Assembly: GCF_009650765.1 (NCBI RefSeq)
Contig: NZ_CP045740.1
Span: 4,192,001-4,256,000, forward strand
Direction of reading: 5' to 3'
DNA length: 64,000 nucleotides
Source of the DNA: Streptomyces sp. SUK 48
GTDB lineage: Bacteria > Actinomycetota > Actinomycetes > Streptomycetales > Streptomycetaceae
A program made the translations under genes and the position numbers. The notes below the pieces were generated by a model. It was given only the letters and a program-made list of their open reading frames with translations. It ran no database searches and was not told the origin of the DNA. This document shows positions 23,585 to 62,731 of this stretch, one piece after another. Each line of letters starts with the position of its first letter. Positions within the stretch are counted from its first letter, which is position 1.

Positions 23585-23746
23585 CGTAAGCCGCCCTCCT
23601 GCTGTTGCTTCCTGAGTCCTCCGACTCGGTGTCACCGCCCACTGCGGAGGGAAGGACACCGGGGACCAGTCTGACGCACCGCACTGACAGTAGGTGCCCG
23701 TCGGGGTCAAGTCGGTCCGAGCGGCAGTCGGGCTCGAAACAGCGAG

Positions 23747-24293
23747 TTGTGCACAGCCCCCGCTTCAAAGCGATTGCCGAGCTCTCTCTAGTTGGGAGTA
23801 GTAGTAGGGCCTGTGGATACCGTGGATAACCACGTTTGCCCAGCTCAGCGCATGTTTTTTGTCCACCGGGCCTGTGCATGGAGGCGGTGGACAACCCGGG
23901 GTATCTGTGGAGAACGGAAAGTTCTGCACACCTCGCCCACAGGACGAGGGCAGTTCTCCCCAGCTGTGTCCCCAGGAATACCCAGGTTTCCCACACCCCA
24001 ACCCGGCACCTTTGTGTGACGCCTTTCACTCGACGCGGTGAGAGGGTGCGTCGCGTTGCCGAACAGTGGACAGCGATGTGGAGAAGCCCCGTCACACTGG
24101 GGACAACCGCCCCCAGCCTGTGGGTTGCCGGTGGACAACTTCATGCACACCCTGTGGATCATTTCTTCGTCCACAGCCTGTGGATCATCTTCGTCCACGA
24201 TTCCACAGCCACCTGAGCTGCACCGACGCGATCTCGCCGCCCTGCCTGTGGACACACCTCGGGACAACTCCACCATCCCCACCGTGTGGACGA
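23747..24293. other. oriC: Chromosomal replication origin oriC
   Basis: Between dnaN and dnaA I count 16 DnaA-box-like 9-mers with at most two mismatches to TTGTCCACA. They start at 23747, 23812, 23821, 23859, 23886, 23906, 24065, 24077, 24098, 24130, 24153, 24167, 24179, 24191, 24247 and 24285. Both orientations occur. None is an exact match. The boxes fall in two groups separated by about 150 bases (23915-24064), which is richer in short A/T stretches. Streptomyces origins normally have about 19-20 boxes and no single long AT-rich element. The flanks from 23585 to 23746 and from 24294 to 24479 contain no other feature I can support. Confidence 0.95.
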
Positions 24294-24479
24294 AAGAAAG
24301 TCGCCGAATCTGTGGAGGGCGGCCGTAACCCGACGAGAAATCGAACAGCCGGCGACGACCGCGGGGTGCTCGGCGGACCACCAAGGCGGCCGTGACCGGG
24401 TGGCTCCGGCCGTTCTGAGTACGAGAACTGAGTAGGGCGACGCTGCCGACGGTCCTGTCGGCGGCGTTTGGATCGCTCC

Positions 24480-25085
24480 ATGACGCCGACTCCGCCCGCC
24501 GTTCCCGCTCCCGCTTCCCGCCCCTGGGCCAAGGCCGTGGGGCTGAGCGCCGCCGGGGCCGTCGTGGCGCTCCTGCTCGTGTGCTTCGCCGCAGGCTGCA
24601 CGGCCCTGGCGGGCGGCCCGGTCAGCTCCGAGGCGGACTTCCTGGCCCACGTGCGCGATACGCGGGCCGCCGGGGAGGACACGGTCCGCTTCCTGGGCTC
24701 GGACCCGGACTCCGTGAGCCTGGACGAAACCAGGTCGTCCGCGTCCTGTGTGGACGACCTCGGCGTCGACGACGGCGGGATCAGCCGGGACCAGCCGTCC
24801 GTCTCCTGGGCCCCGGACTTCCCGGACGGCGACGCCGGGTATCGCGCGGCGATCGCCGCGCTCCGCGGACGGTGGTCCGAGCGGGGATGGAAGGTGACCA
24901 CGGAGCCGGAGACCGACCCGGTCAGCGGCCGGGCAACCGGCCGGCAAGTGATCCACACCACCGACGACCACGGCGTCACGCTGTCGCTGAGCCCCGGCCG
25001 GCACACCGGCGAGGGACGGGTCGTGGCCGACGGCGGCTGCGTCCGCCACGAGGGCGTCTGGGAGACGGACGACCGGGATCTCTGA
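24480..25085 (+). CDS. Putative lipoprotein between oriC and dnaA
   Basis: 201 residues from ATG 24480 (TTG 24468 also possible). N-terminal Pro-rich stretch, then a hydrophobic helix (LSAAGAVVALLLVCF) ending in AAGC with Cys40, which resembles a lipobox, although Ala rather than Leu is at -3. The mature part has three more cysteines and a pattern (FLAHVRDTRAAGE..., YRAAIAALRGRWSERGWKVTTE) seen in small actinobacterial lipoproteins. Codon use is normal for this DNA. It faces dnaA and is transcribed out of oriC. The dnaA-dnaN gap is usually described as gene-free in Streptomyces, so this gene is unexpected. Function unknown. Confidence 0.65.
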   Translation: MTPTPPAVPAPASRPWAKAVGLSAAGAVVALLLVCFAAGCTALAGGPVSSEADFLAHVRDTRAAGEDTVRFLGSDPDSVSLDETRSSASCVDDLGVDDGGISRDQPSVSWAPDFPDGDAGYRAAIAALRGRWSERGWKVTTEPETDPVSGRATGRQVIHTTDDHGVTLSLSPGRHTGEGRVVADGGCVRHEGVWETDDRDL

Positions 25086-59432: not shown

Positions 59433-60770
59433 TCAGCGGGTCGCGCCCGTCACCAGCCAGCGGCCCGAGCGGCTGCGCCACCACAGGGTGGCCATGCGGA
59501 CGGTCATCATCAGCGTCATCGCGGCCCAGAGCGCGGTCAGCCCGCCGCCGAACACCGGGACGAGCAGGGCCGCCGGAACGAACACGGCCAGGGTCACCAG
59601 CATCGCCCCCGCCAGGTAGGGCCCGTCTCCGGCGCCCATCAGGACGCCGTCCAGGACGAAGACGATGCCGCAGATGGGCTGGGACAGCGCCACCAGCAGC
59701 AACGCGGGCAGTGCCGCGTCCTTGACCACCGGGTCGCCGGTGAACAGCGGCAGGAAGAGCGGCCGGGCCGCGACGACCAGCAGTCCGAGTACGACACCGG
59801 TGGCGATGCCCCACTGGACCATCCGCCGGCAGGCCGCGCGGGCGCCCTCGGTGTCGGCCGCTCCGAGGTAGCGGCCGATGATGGCCTGCCCCGCGATCGC
59901 GATGGCGTCGAGCGCGAAGGCCAGCAGGCTCCACAGGGACAAAATGATCTGGTGGGCGGCGATGTCGGCGTCACCGAGACGGGCCGCGACGGCGGTGGCG
60001 ATCATGAGGATCGCGCGCAGCGACAGGGTGCGGACCAGGAGCGGGACACCGGCCTGTGCCGAGGCCCGGATCCCGGCCGCGTCCGGGCGCAGGGACGCTC
60101 CGTGCCGTCGCGCACCCCGTACGACCACGGTCAGATAGACGGCCGCCATGGCGCACTGGGCGATCACCGTGCCCCAGGCCGAGCCGGCGATGCCCAGCCC
60201 GGCGCCGTAGACCAGGCCCACATTGAGAACGCCGTTGGCGATGAAACCGCCGATCGCCACATAGAGCGGCGTCCTGGTGTCCTGGAGGCCGCGAAGCACT
60301 CCGGTGGCGGCGAGCACCATGAGCATGGCCGGGATACCCAGCGAGGAGACGCGCAGATAGGTCGTGGCGTAGGGGGCCGCGGTGGTGGAGGCGCCGAAGA
60401 GGTCCACGATGCCGGGTGCCAGGGGAAGGACGACGGCGATGACGGCGATCCCGAGCAGCAGCGCCAGCCAGATGCCGTCCATGCCCTGGCGGATGGCGCC
60501 CGCGCGATCACCCGCGCCGACCCGGCGGGCCACGGCGGCCGTGGTGGCGTAGGCGAGGAAGACGAAGATGCTCACGGCGGTGGTCAGAAGGGCGGAGGCG
60601 ATGCCGAGACCGGCGAGCTGGGCCGTGCCGAGGTGGCCGACAATGGCACTGTCCGCCATGACGAAAAGCGGCTCGGCGACGAGTGCGCCGAAGGCCGGGA
60701 CGGCCAGCGCGACGATCTCTCGGTCGTGCCGCCGGCGGGTGGCCTCGGGGATCTCGGGAGCCTGGGTCAT
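59433..60770 (-). CDS. MATE family efflux transporter
   Basis: 445 residues with about 12 membrane helices. ALVAEPLFVMADSAIVGHLGTAQLAGLGIASAL is the MATE/DinF start, and an internal repeat (AFALDAIAIAGQAIIGRYLGAADTEGARAACRRM) marks the second half. Expels cationic compounds or drugs using Na+ or H+; substrate unknown. Divergent from dnaB; an ATGCAATTGCAT palindrome at 60802-60813 lies 32 bases before its start. Confidence 0.9.
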   Translation of the reverse strand: MTQAPEIPEATRRRHDREIVALAVPAFGALVAEPLFVMADSAIVGHLGTAQLAGLGIASALLTTAVSIFVFLAYATTAAVARRVGAGDRAGAIRQGMDGIWLALLLGIAVIAVVLPLAPGIVDLFGASTTAAPYATTYLRVSSLGIPAMLMVLAATGVLRGLQDTRTPLYVAIGGFIANGVLNVGLVYGAGLGIAGSAWGTVIAQCAMAAVYLTVVVRGARRHGASLRPDAAGIRASAQAGVPLLVRTLSLRAILMIATAVAARLGDADIAAHQIILSLWSLLAFALDAIAIAGQAIIGRYLGAADTEGARAACRRMVQWGIATGVVLGLLVVAARPLFLPLFTGDPVVKDAALPALLLVALSQPICGIVFVLDGVLMGAGDGPYLAGAMLVTLAVFVPAALLVPVFGGGLTALWAAMTLMMTVRMATLWWRSRSGRWLVTGATR

Positions 60771-61252
60771 GGGCGCTAATGTAATCGTCCACAGGTAAGA
60801 GATGCAATTGCATTGTGACCCTTACTTGTGCTCTTGACCGCCCTCCGCTCGCGCACCGTTCGAACCGATCTTGGTCCGACCGGGAAAGTTTTTCTTCTGC
60901 ACAGCCGGTGGATGCCGAAACCGCAGGTCAGGGGCGTGGCCTGGAAGGGATCGAGGGCTTGTTCACAGGGCTGTCCACCGGGTCGTGCACAGGTTTCGGC
61001 GAGTTCTCCACAGCATCGGGGCCGTCGTCCACATGGCCTGTGGATAACCAGATTGGCTGACGGTGCCGACGGGCCTACCGTGGTCCGGCGCCCGCTCCTT
61101 CTCCGGGCTCCGGCAGGCGATGCCTCCGAGGCCCGGGAAACGGCACAAAACCGACGCGCCTTGAGCGGAGTTGGGCCTCTCGATTTGTCAGTGTCGTGCC
61201 GTACAAAAGAGGACACGGCGAGGTCCGCCGTGTGACGGGAGGAGGTGGCTCG
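60771..61252. promoter_or_regulatory. MATE/dnaB divergent region with a DnaA-box cluster
   Basis: 482 bases. DnaA-box-like 9-mers with at most two mismatches start at 60785 (TCGTCCACA), 60895 (TTCTGCACA), 60959 (TTGTTCACA), 60971 (CTGTCCACC), 60983 (TCGTGCACA), 61004 (TTCTCCACA), 61025 (TCGTCCACA) and 61039 (TGTGGATAA). Six of the eight fall within 89 bases. Density is like that of oriC. A perfect palindrome ATGCAATTGCAT is at 60802-60813. The dnaB promoter should lie between 61048 and 61240, but no element is clear. Confidence 0.6.
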
Positions 61253-62731
61253 GTGAGCATTTCCGAGCCCTTGGACGATCCGTGGGCCGACAGCGGGCCC
61301 AGTGATCGTCTGCCGGCCTCCCGTCGGCGACCCGAGGGCGGCCGGGGCCGTGACGAGCAGCACGACCGGGGCCGGGACAACACCGGGTGGGACGGCGGCG
61401 GTTCCTCCTTCGAGCGGGTGCCCCCGCAGGACCTCGACGCCGAGCAGTCGGTGCTCGGCGGCATGCTGCTGTCCAAGGACGCCATCGCCGACGTCGTCGA
61501 GATCCTCAAGGGCCACGACTTCTACAAGCCCGCGCACGAGACGATCTACCAGGCGATCCTCGACATCTACGCCAAGGGTGAGCCGGCCGACCCGATCACC
61601 ATCGCCGCGGAACTCACCAAGCGCGGCGAGATCAACAAGGTCGGCGGCGCGGCGTATCTGCACAGCCTCGTCCAGACCGTGCCGACGGCGGCCAACGCCG
61701 AGTACTACGCGGAGATCGTCCACGAGCGGGCCGTACTGCGCCGCCTGGTCGAGGCCGGCACCCGGATCACGCAGATGGGATACGCGGCCGACGGCGATGT
61801 GGACGAGATCGTCAACAGTGCCCAGGCCGAGATCTACGCCGTAACCGAGCAGCGCACCAGCGAGGACTATCTGCCGCTGGGCGACATCATGGAGGGGGCG
61901 CTCGACGAGATCGAGGCGATCGGCTCGCGCAGCGGCGAGATGACCGGTGTGCCCACCGGGTTCACCGACTTCGACTCGCTGACCAACGGTCTGCACCCCG
62001 GTCAGATGATCGTCATCGCGGCCCGTCCCGCCATGGGTAAGTCGACGCTGGCGCTGGACTTCGCGCGGGCCGCGTCGATCAAGAACAACCTGCCGAGCGT
62101 CATCTTCTCGCTCGAAATGGGGCGCAACGAGATCGCGATGCGTCTGCTGTCCGCCGAAGCGCGCGTCGCCCTGCACCACATGCGCTCCGGCACGATGACC
62201 GACGAGGACTGGACCCGGCTCGCCCGCCGGATGCCGGACGTCTCGGCCGCCCCGCTCTACATCGACGACTCCCCGAACCTGTCGATGATGGAGATCCGGG
62301 CCAAGTGCCGCCGCCTCAAGCAGCGCAACGACCTGAAACTCGTCGTCATCGACTACCTCCAGCTGATGCAGTCCGGCGGCTCCAAGCGCGCCGAGAGCCG
62401 CCAGCAGGAGGTCTCGGACATGTCCCGTAACCTCAAGCTCCTCGCCAAGGAGCTGGAGATCCCGGTCATCGCGCTGTCCCAGCTGAACCGTGGCCCCGAA
62501 CAGCGCACCGACAAGAAGCCGATGGTCTCCGACCTGCGTGAATCCGGCTCGATCGAGCAGGACGCCGACATGGTCATCCTGCTGCACCGCGAGGACGCCT
62601 ACGAGAAGGAGTCCCCCCGCGCCGGCGAGGCCGACCTGATCGTCGCCAAGCACCGTAACGGCCCCACGGCCACCATCACGGTCGCCTTCCAGGGCCACTA
62701 CTCGCGCTTCGTGGACATGGCGCAGACCTGA
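61253..62731 (+). CDS. dnaB: Replicative DNA helicase DnaB
   Basis: 492 residues from GTG 61253 after GGAGGAGGTG. A disordered N-terminus of about 55 residues, the DnaB N-domain (PPQDLDAEQSVLGGMLLSKDAIADVVEIL), then the RecA-like motor: Walker A ARPAMGKST near 258, FSLEMGRNEIAMRLL, Walker B VVIDYLQLM, and the arginine-finger end. No intein. Unwinds DNA at the fork; loaded by DnaA and DciA. DnaA boxes upstream suggest DnaA-dependent control. Confidence 0.97.
   Translation: MSISEPLDDPWADSGPSDRLPASRRRPEGGRGRDEQHDRGRDNTGWDGGGSSFERVPPQDLDAEQSVLGGMLLSKDAIADVVEILKGHDFYKPAHETIYQAILDIYAKGEPADPITIAAELTKRGEINKVGGAAYLHSLVQTVPTAANAEYYAEIVHERAVLRRLVEAGTRITQMGYAADGDVDEIVNSAQAEIYAVTEQRTSEDYLPLGDIMEGALDEIEAIGSRSGEMTGVPTGFTDFDSLTNGLHPGQMIVIAARPAMGKSTLALDFARAASIKNNLPSVIFSLEMGRNEIAMRLLSAEARVALHHMRSGTMTDEDWTRLARRMPDVSAAPLYIDDSPNLSMMEIRAKCRRLKQRNDLKLVVIDYLQLMQSGGSKRAESRQQEVSDMSRNLKLLAKELEIPVIALSQLNRGPEQRTDKKPMVSDLRESGSIEQDADMVILLHREDAYEKESPRAGEADLIVAKHRNGPTATITVAFQGHYSRFVDMAQT

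Follow-up and report, generated by a model that had tools for sequence, protein, structure and literature searches.

In Escherichia coli, datA and DARS are clusters of DnaA boxes outside oriC that control the nucleotide state of DnaA. The cluster described here, which precedes dnaB in Streptomyces sp. SUK 48, likewise consists of DnaA boxes outside oriC; unlike it, datA and DARS are not defined as promoter elements. In Streptomyces coelicolor, the extra-oriC DnaA-box clusters H69, H24, and D78 were reportedly described by Smulczyk-Krawczyszyn in 2006, and cosmid H24 is said to carry parAB. The dnaB cluster, the only strong one apart from oriC in the 64,000-nucleotide stretch analyzed (the window), may be the H24 of S. 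coelicolor. The S. coelicolor clusters lie near oriC and come from the same genus as the present cluster; they are cited for the control of initiation (PMC4585315), whereas control of dnaB is proposed here.

In mycobacteria, five regions are reported to be bound by DnaA, both by the M. tuberculosis protein in vitro and by the M. smegmatis protein in vivo (ChIP-seq), namely, oriC, rpmH-dnaA, the region upstream of dnaB, Rv0010c-Rv0011c, and Rv3843c-RVnc0040 (PMC7738170). According to the same source, the mycobacterial DnaA mutant I282T shows weaker binding upstream of dnaB together with lower dnaB expression, which is a correlation. The mycobacterial and Streptomyces sites share the gene and the position. 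DnaA binding has been shown for the former (PMC7738170), and the latter is described here, from its sequence, as an ordered array locked to a promoter. In Caulobacter crescentus, predicted DnaA boxes are located upstream of dnaB and DnaA is listed as a dnaB regulator, as would apply to Streptomyces, but this organism belongs to a distant phylum (PMC8203912). In a cyanobacterial study, the dnaB promoter is used for expression only (PMC6478999).

The window lies within a chromosome of 8.34 Mb, assembled as one contig. Its MATE-dnaB gap comprises 482 bases between two divergent genes, and the features of the locus are given below, where row counts refer to an alignment of 68 rows (the window and 67 relatives).

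59433..60770, minus strand: MATE efflux gene, divergent neighbor (Pfam MatE, E 3.7e-48)
60785..60793, plus strand: DnaA-like box TCGTCCACA, outlying toward MATE, 1 mismatch
60895..60903, plus strand: outlying degenerate box TTCTGCACA, 2 mismatches
60959..60967, plus strand: core box 1, TTGTTCACA, within 1 mismatch in 67/68 rows
60971..60979, plus strand: core box 2, weak, CTGTCCACC, within 2 mismatches in 48/68 rows and within 1 in 2/68
60983..60991, plus strand: core box 3, weak, TCGTGCACA, within 2 mismatches in 48/68 rows and within 1 in 4/68
61004..61012, plus strand: core box 4, TTCTCCACA, within 1 mismatch in 68/68 rows
61025..61033, plus strand: core box 5, TCGTCCACA, within 1 mismatch in 60/68 rows and within 2 in 68/68
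61039..61047, minus strand: core box 6, TTATCCACA, promoter-proximal, identical in 68/68 rows
61053..61058, plus strand: predicted dnaB -35 element TTGGCT, TTGGnn in 68/68 rows
61076..61081, plus strand: predicted dnaB -10 element TACCGT, TAnnnT in 68/68 rows
61253..62731, plus strand: dnaB, replicative helicase (Pfam DnaB, E 8e-38; DnaB_C, E 5.4e-108)
23740..24320, no strand: oriC, comparator, about 37 kb from the cluster, 23 boxes within 2 mismatches

The gap contains eight DnaA-box-like 9-mers, at 60785, 60895, 60959, 60971, 60983, 61004, and 61025 on the plus strand and at 61039 on the minus strand. Each has at most two mismatches to TTGTCCACA, described as the high-affinity DnaA box of S. 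coelicolor (PMC4285127), and five have at most one. The cluster at 60785-61047 is thus confirmed as earlier described: the eight boxes within 263 bases and the six within 89 (60959-61047) of the original prediction are all present. Dinucleotide shuffling of the 263-base stretch (2000 times) gave 0.88 boxes on average and 5 at most, against the 8 observed; for the whole gap, the corresponding shuffled values were 1.25 and 7. The 89-base core, with six boxes, compares with a shuffled mean of 0.41, and six or more were reached in 0.05% of shuffles. A matrix built from the 23 oriC boxes of the same genome detected 7 sites in 60700-61250, although box 60971 fell below its threshold, whereas the rate in the remaining window would give 0.39. 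By both matrix and shuffling, as the original prediction had suggested checking, the box number is far above chance. The claim of a density near that of oriC also stood, with six boxes in 89 bases vs. 23 in 581.

When boxes with at most one mismatch to TTGTCCACA or TTATCCACA were counted over 464 kb around oriC, the dnaB cluster had the most boxes per 300 bases outside oriC (5, next 4). With 320-base windows, it is equaled by a cluster between serS and pheA (5 boxes each). The perfect pattern TTRTCCACA occurs once in the dnaB cluster (61039) vs. four times in the serS-pheA cluster; genome-wide, it is found 64 times and the reversed pattern 23 times, and several groups of it lie near oriC.

The 67 relatives comprise 38 named loci (mostly Streptomyces, one Kitasatospora, and one labeled Saccharothrix) and 29 further loci, which come from the best-scoring 30 of 121 genomes, the thirtieth being the window itself; dnaB was found in all 121 genomes searched. 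Across the 68 rows, identity to the window is 93.8% in box columns, 68.0% in the other gap columns, and 85.9% at the start of dnaB. The six-box pattern has a conservation score of 0.956, while the best of 389 slid positions reaches 0.931, at a shift of 3 bp. The spacing of core boxes 1 to 5 (12-12-21-21 bp) is the same in every row. Boxes 61025 and 61039 lie 14 bp apart in 64 rows, 15 bp in one, and 25 bp in three, and the 11 extra bases of these three rows correspond to one helical turn. At least three boxes within 600 bases were present in 38 of the 38 named Streptomycetaceae loci. Conservation upstream of dnaB, another check proposed with the original prediction, is found in the core boxes, which are kept in relatives above the level of the rest of the gap.

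Treating all eight boxes as one unit was rejected: the outer two are looser, and the conserved unit consists of the six-box core and the promoter. Box 60785, whose distance is 15 bases to the MATE start codon and 174 bases to the core, is within one mismatch of TTGTCCACA or TTATCCACA in 39/68 rows and within two in 61/68. For box 60895, the corresponding numbers are 1/68 and 50/68, and its terminal CACA is retained in 96-100% of rows.

The predicted dnaB promoter, TTGGCT-N17-TACCGT (61053-61081), follows immediately after the invariant minus-strand box 61039. This box ends 5 bp before the -35 element in 67/68 rows and 6 bp before it in the remaining one, and box 61025 ends 19 bp before it in 63 rows, 20 in two, and 30 in three. 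The spacer between the two elements measures 17 bp in most rows (63) and 18 bp in the other five. A generic sigma-70 scan gave no promoter in 60600-61300, and the promoter was called on conservation. In HrdB promoters, the -10 element is described as conserved (A at -11, T at -7) and the -35 element as weak or missing (PMC6344877). The dnaB -10 element TACCGT fits that description, and the same source places dnaB (SCO3911) within the modeled HrdB regulon of S. coelicolor. We infer a dnaB transcription start near 61088. The GTG start codon was assigned from the ribosome-binding site; another in-frame GTG is located upstream at 61196. Furthermore, 5-methylcytosine upstream of dnaB and an increase of dnaB upon 5-aza-dC treatment are reported for S. 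coelicolor (PMC10148868); therefore, some other control of the gene exists.

The resemblance to oriC in box density would fit a weak secondary origin, as suggested in the original prediction, or an unwinding element. The window’s lowest-GC 50-mer (0.40, at 60777) is indeed in the gap, and the lowest value in oriC is 0.48. However, this AT-rich stretch lies beside MATE, over 130 bases away from the core and in the less conserved part of the gap, and conservation stops at a promoter. Such an origin or unwinding element is highly improbable. The stretch 60777-60830, beside the MATE start and including this lowest-GC 50-mer, carries a ATGCAATTGCAT palindrome and a GTAAG...CTTAC inverted repeat; it looks like a candidate operator of the MATE gene.

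The core (60959-61047) and the promoter (61053-61081) probably constitute a control region through which dnaB responds to DnaA, most likely by activation. DnaA would bind the invariant TTATCCACA box, centered at about -45 from the inferred start, and, in steps of about 11-12 bp or multiples thereof, would assemble in head-to-tail order on the helically phased boxes upstream of it. The resulting filament would adjoin the promoter without covering it, and bound DnaA would assist RNA polymerase (HrdB) in transcribing dnaB, so that the helicase supply would be set by the initiator that loads it. DnaA binding in this species, activation over repression, and timing within the cell cycle are aspects that we infer. 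The earlier idea that DnaA might switch dnaB expression is well supported by the conserved core, the fixed spacing, the adjoining promoter, and the class-wide association described below; by analogy, it also gains from DnaA binding at the same position in mycobacteria (PMC7738170). DnaA-regulated promoters and DnaA-box clusters are of a known kind; what is new is that array and promoter stand in a fixed arrangement and that this extends through the class.

The sign of the effect could also be the opposite, with DnaA repressing dnaB, or with dnaB transcribed in a pulse when a passing fork displaces DnaA. DnaA is described as repressing its own gene in several bacteria (PMC8203912), and in this genome boxes 27501 and 27513 are just upstream of the dnaA start (27468). 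At dnaB, however, the core boxes are all upstream of the -35 element and do not overlap the promoter, and in the mycobacterial mutant less binding is accompanied by less dnaB transcript (PMC7738170). Repression or a fork-driven pulse is accordingly rather improbable, and activation is the reading followed here.

The distribution of the boxes was analyzed in the class Actinomycetes. The class draw had 158 genomes, of which 113 gave a DnaB match at a strict cut-off (the other 45 were left out), and 40 non-Streptomyces genomes from 37 genera and 17 families were chosen by hand, with the aim of one per genus. Boxes with at most one mismatch to TTGTCCACA or TTATCCACA were counted in the 700 bases upstream of the conserved part of DnaB. 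The mean was 3.80 boxes, against an expectation of 0.13 from the rest of each locus and 0.16 from shuffles; at least one box was present in 39 genomes, at least two in 36, and at least three in 31. The excess was individually significant at 1% in 34 of the 40 (shuffles). One genome had no box upstream of dnaB, and 3 of the 17 families had no genome with two or more. Among the named loci outside Streptomycetaceae, 40 of 42 had at least one box and 34 at least three (600 bases). Outside the class, 20 genomes of the same phylum gave a mean of 0.80, and ten of them had none. For control genes, the means per 600 bases were 0.30 upstream of serS and 0.07 upstream of crgA (30 genomes each). Chance or base composition, which would make the cluster an accident of the sequence, is ruled out by these controls, the shuffles, and the conservation, so that its probability is virtually nil.

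The order of the array is also found beyond Streptomyces. In the 40 class genomes, distances between same-strand boxes peak at 11-12, 21-23, 32-34, and 43-45 bp, with 35 pairs at 11 bp, 24 at 12 bp, and 24 at 44 bp, where shuffles give 0.15 for each distance. In 33/40 genomes and 14/17 families, a same-strand pair lies 11 or 12 bp apart, and 110 boxes point towards dnaB vs. 42 away from it. In 82 upstream regions outside Streptomycetaceae (40 + 42), 47 promoter-like sites were identified, 38 of which, each from a different genome, are phased with a box. A single match came up when 218,730 bases of neighboring DNA were scanned in this way. Under this pattern, the phased promoter was absent from 44 of the 82 regions (29 of the 40 in the class draw). 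The box ends 4-6 bp before the -35 element if on the minus strand and 7-8 or 18-20 bp before it if on the plus strand, and in Streptomyces the minus 5 and plus 19 phases occur together. By hand count, 21 of the 38 genomes follow phases predictable from Streptomyces alone and 17 only the plus 7-8 phase, which was derived from the same data later counted, among related sequences that are not independent. Collectively, this distribution suggests that the dnaB box cluster is old.

Since dnaB is mostly near dnaA, boxes tied to the gene and boxes tied to oriC can be told apart within the class in a single genome, G128. There, dnaB and dnaA are on different contigs; the contig with dnaB measures 1.16 Mb, with 472 kb between the gene and the nearer contig end, so the two genes are at least 472 kb apart. 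Upstream of this dnaB are eight boxes and a phased promoter, and neighboring open reading frames read as ssb and rplI. In this one genome, for which misassembly is possible, the boxes accompany dnaB and not oriC. Elsewhere in the class, by hand reading, no more than about 130 kb separates dnaB from dnaA in genomes that have the two on the same contig. Outside the class, dnaB is away from oriC in four genomes (G131, G155, G165, and G144), and the two in which boxes were counted, G131 and G144, have none; these cases are uninformative because boxes are mostly missing as well from out-of-class genomes in which dnaB is near dnaA.

These positions bear on whether the cluster is mainly a reservoir or inactivation site for DnaA, similar to datA, that moderates oriC 37 kb away, its position ahead of dnaB being incidental or secondary. 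Clusters near oriC in S. coelicolor and B. subtilis are described as repressing untimely initiation (PMC4585315), further clusters occur near oriC in this genome, and the usual proximity of dnaB to dnaA would suit such a role. Titration as the main function would nevertheless leave unexplained the fixed phase to the dnaB promoter and the boxes that go with the distant dnaB of G128, and the serS-pheA cluster, with four perfect boxes vs. one, is the better candidate sink. Titration, one of the roles named in the original prediction, may occur at this locus but is unlikely to be its main function.

Other DnaA-box sites were observed. The serS-pheA cluster is located at G000:C1:4295068-4295380 and could be the D78 of S. 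coelicolor. It was rejected as a class-wide site, since two or more boxes upstream of serS were found in 1/30 genomes, the Streptomyces one. Further groups, with up to four boxes per 300 bases, are located at G000:C1:4285915-4285968 and from 4145652 onwards.

A second conserved DnaA-box cluster, at G000:C1:4172653-4172862, has crgA on one side and, on the other, a rhomboid gene and then a cyclophilin gene (Pfam). We take Rv0009 to Rv0011c to be cyclophilin, a membrane protein, and CrgA; because the gene order is then the same, the crgA cluster would correspond in position to the Rv0010c-Rv0011c site of mycobacteria. Two or more boxes within 600 bases downstream of crgA were present in 25/30 genomes (mean 2.30), and upstream of crgA in 0/30 (mean 0.07); three of the 30 crgA loci are cut by contig ends, which makes their coordinates less sure. 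The authors of the mycobacterial study remark that the crgA-region site has no obvious correspondence in other bacterial species (PMC7738170). Contrary to this remark, as it stands in that source, counterparts are present in most of the Actinomycetes genomes examined here.

It is conceivable, although we hold this only tentatively, that a helically phased, orisome-like DnaA filament, standing at one of a few fixed phases to the dnaB promoter, is wired in throughout the class and forms, with the crgA cluster, an ancestral circuit linking initiation, helicase supply, and possibly division. In that case, the DnaA that readies oriC would also set the supply of DnaB. For the matching of helicase supply to initiation in Actinomycetes, the array offers a precise prediction: box 61039 would be the decisive one, DnaA would stand in a given phase to the polymerase, and the effect would be activation. 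A single mycobacterial ChIP peak thereby becomes a feature traceable across most of the sampled families, which points to an ancestral DnaA regulon partly common to antibiotic producers and mycobacteria.

Several smaller observations concern the surroundings. An Rfam search of the window matched two tRNAs only, with no match inside the gap. A conserved leader hairpin (61213-61233) was rejected, full pairing being retained in just 3 of 55 gap-free aligned rows; the dnaB leader of the window itself has a perfect 8-bp stem (61204-61233). An open reading frame in the interval from oriC to the dnaA 3' end (24468-25085, plus strand) has a lipoprotein-like start and no Pfam match. Finally, in several relatives (e.g., G045, G105, and G350), the dnaB match is split in two inside an open frame whose length is about 870-1430 amino acids, as would be expected from inteins.
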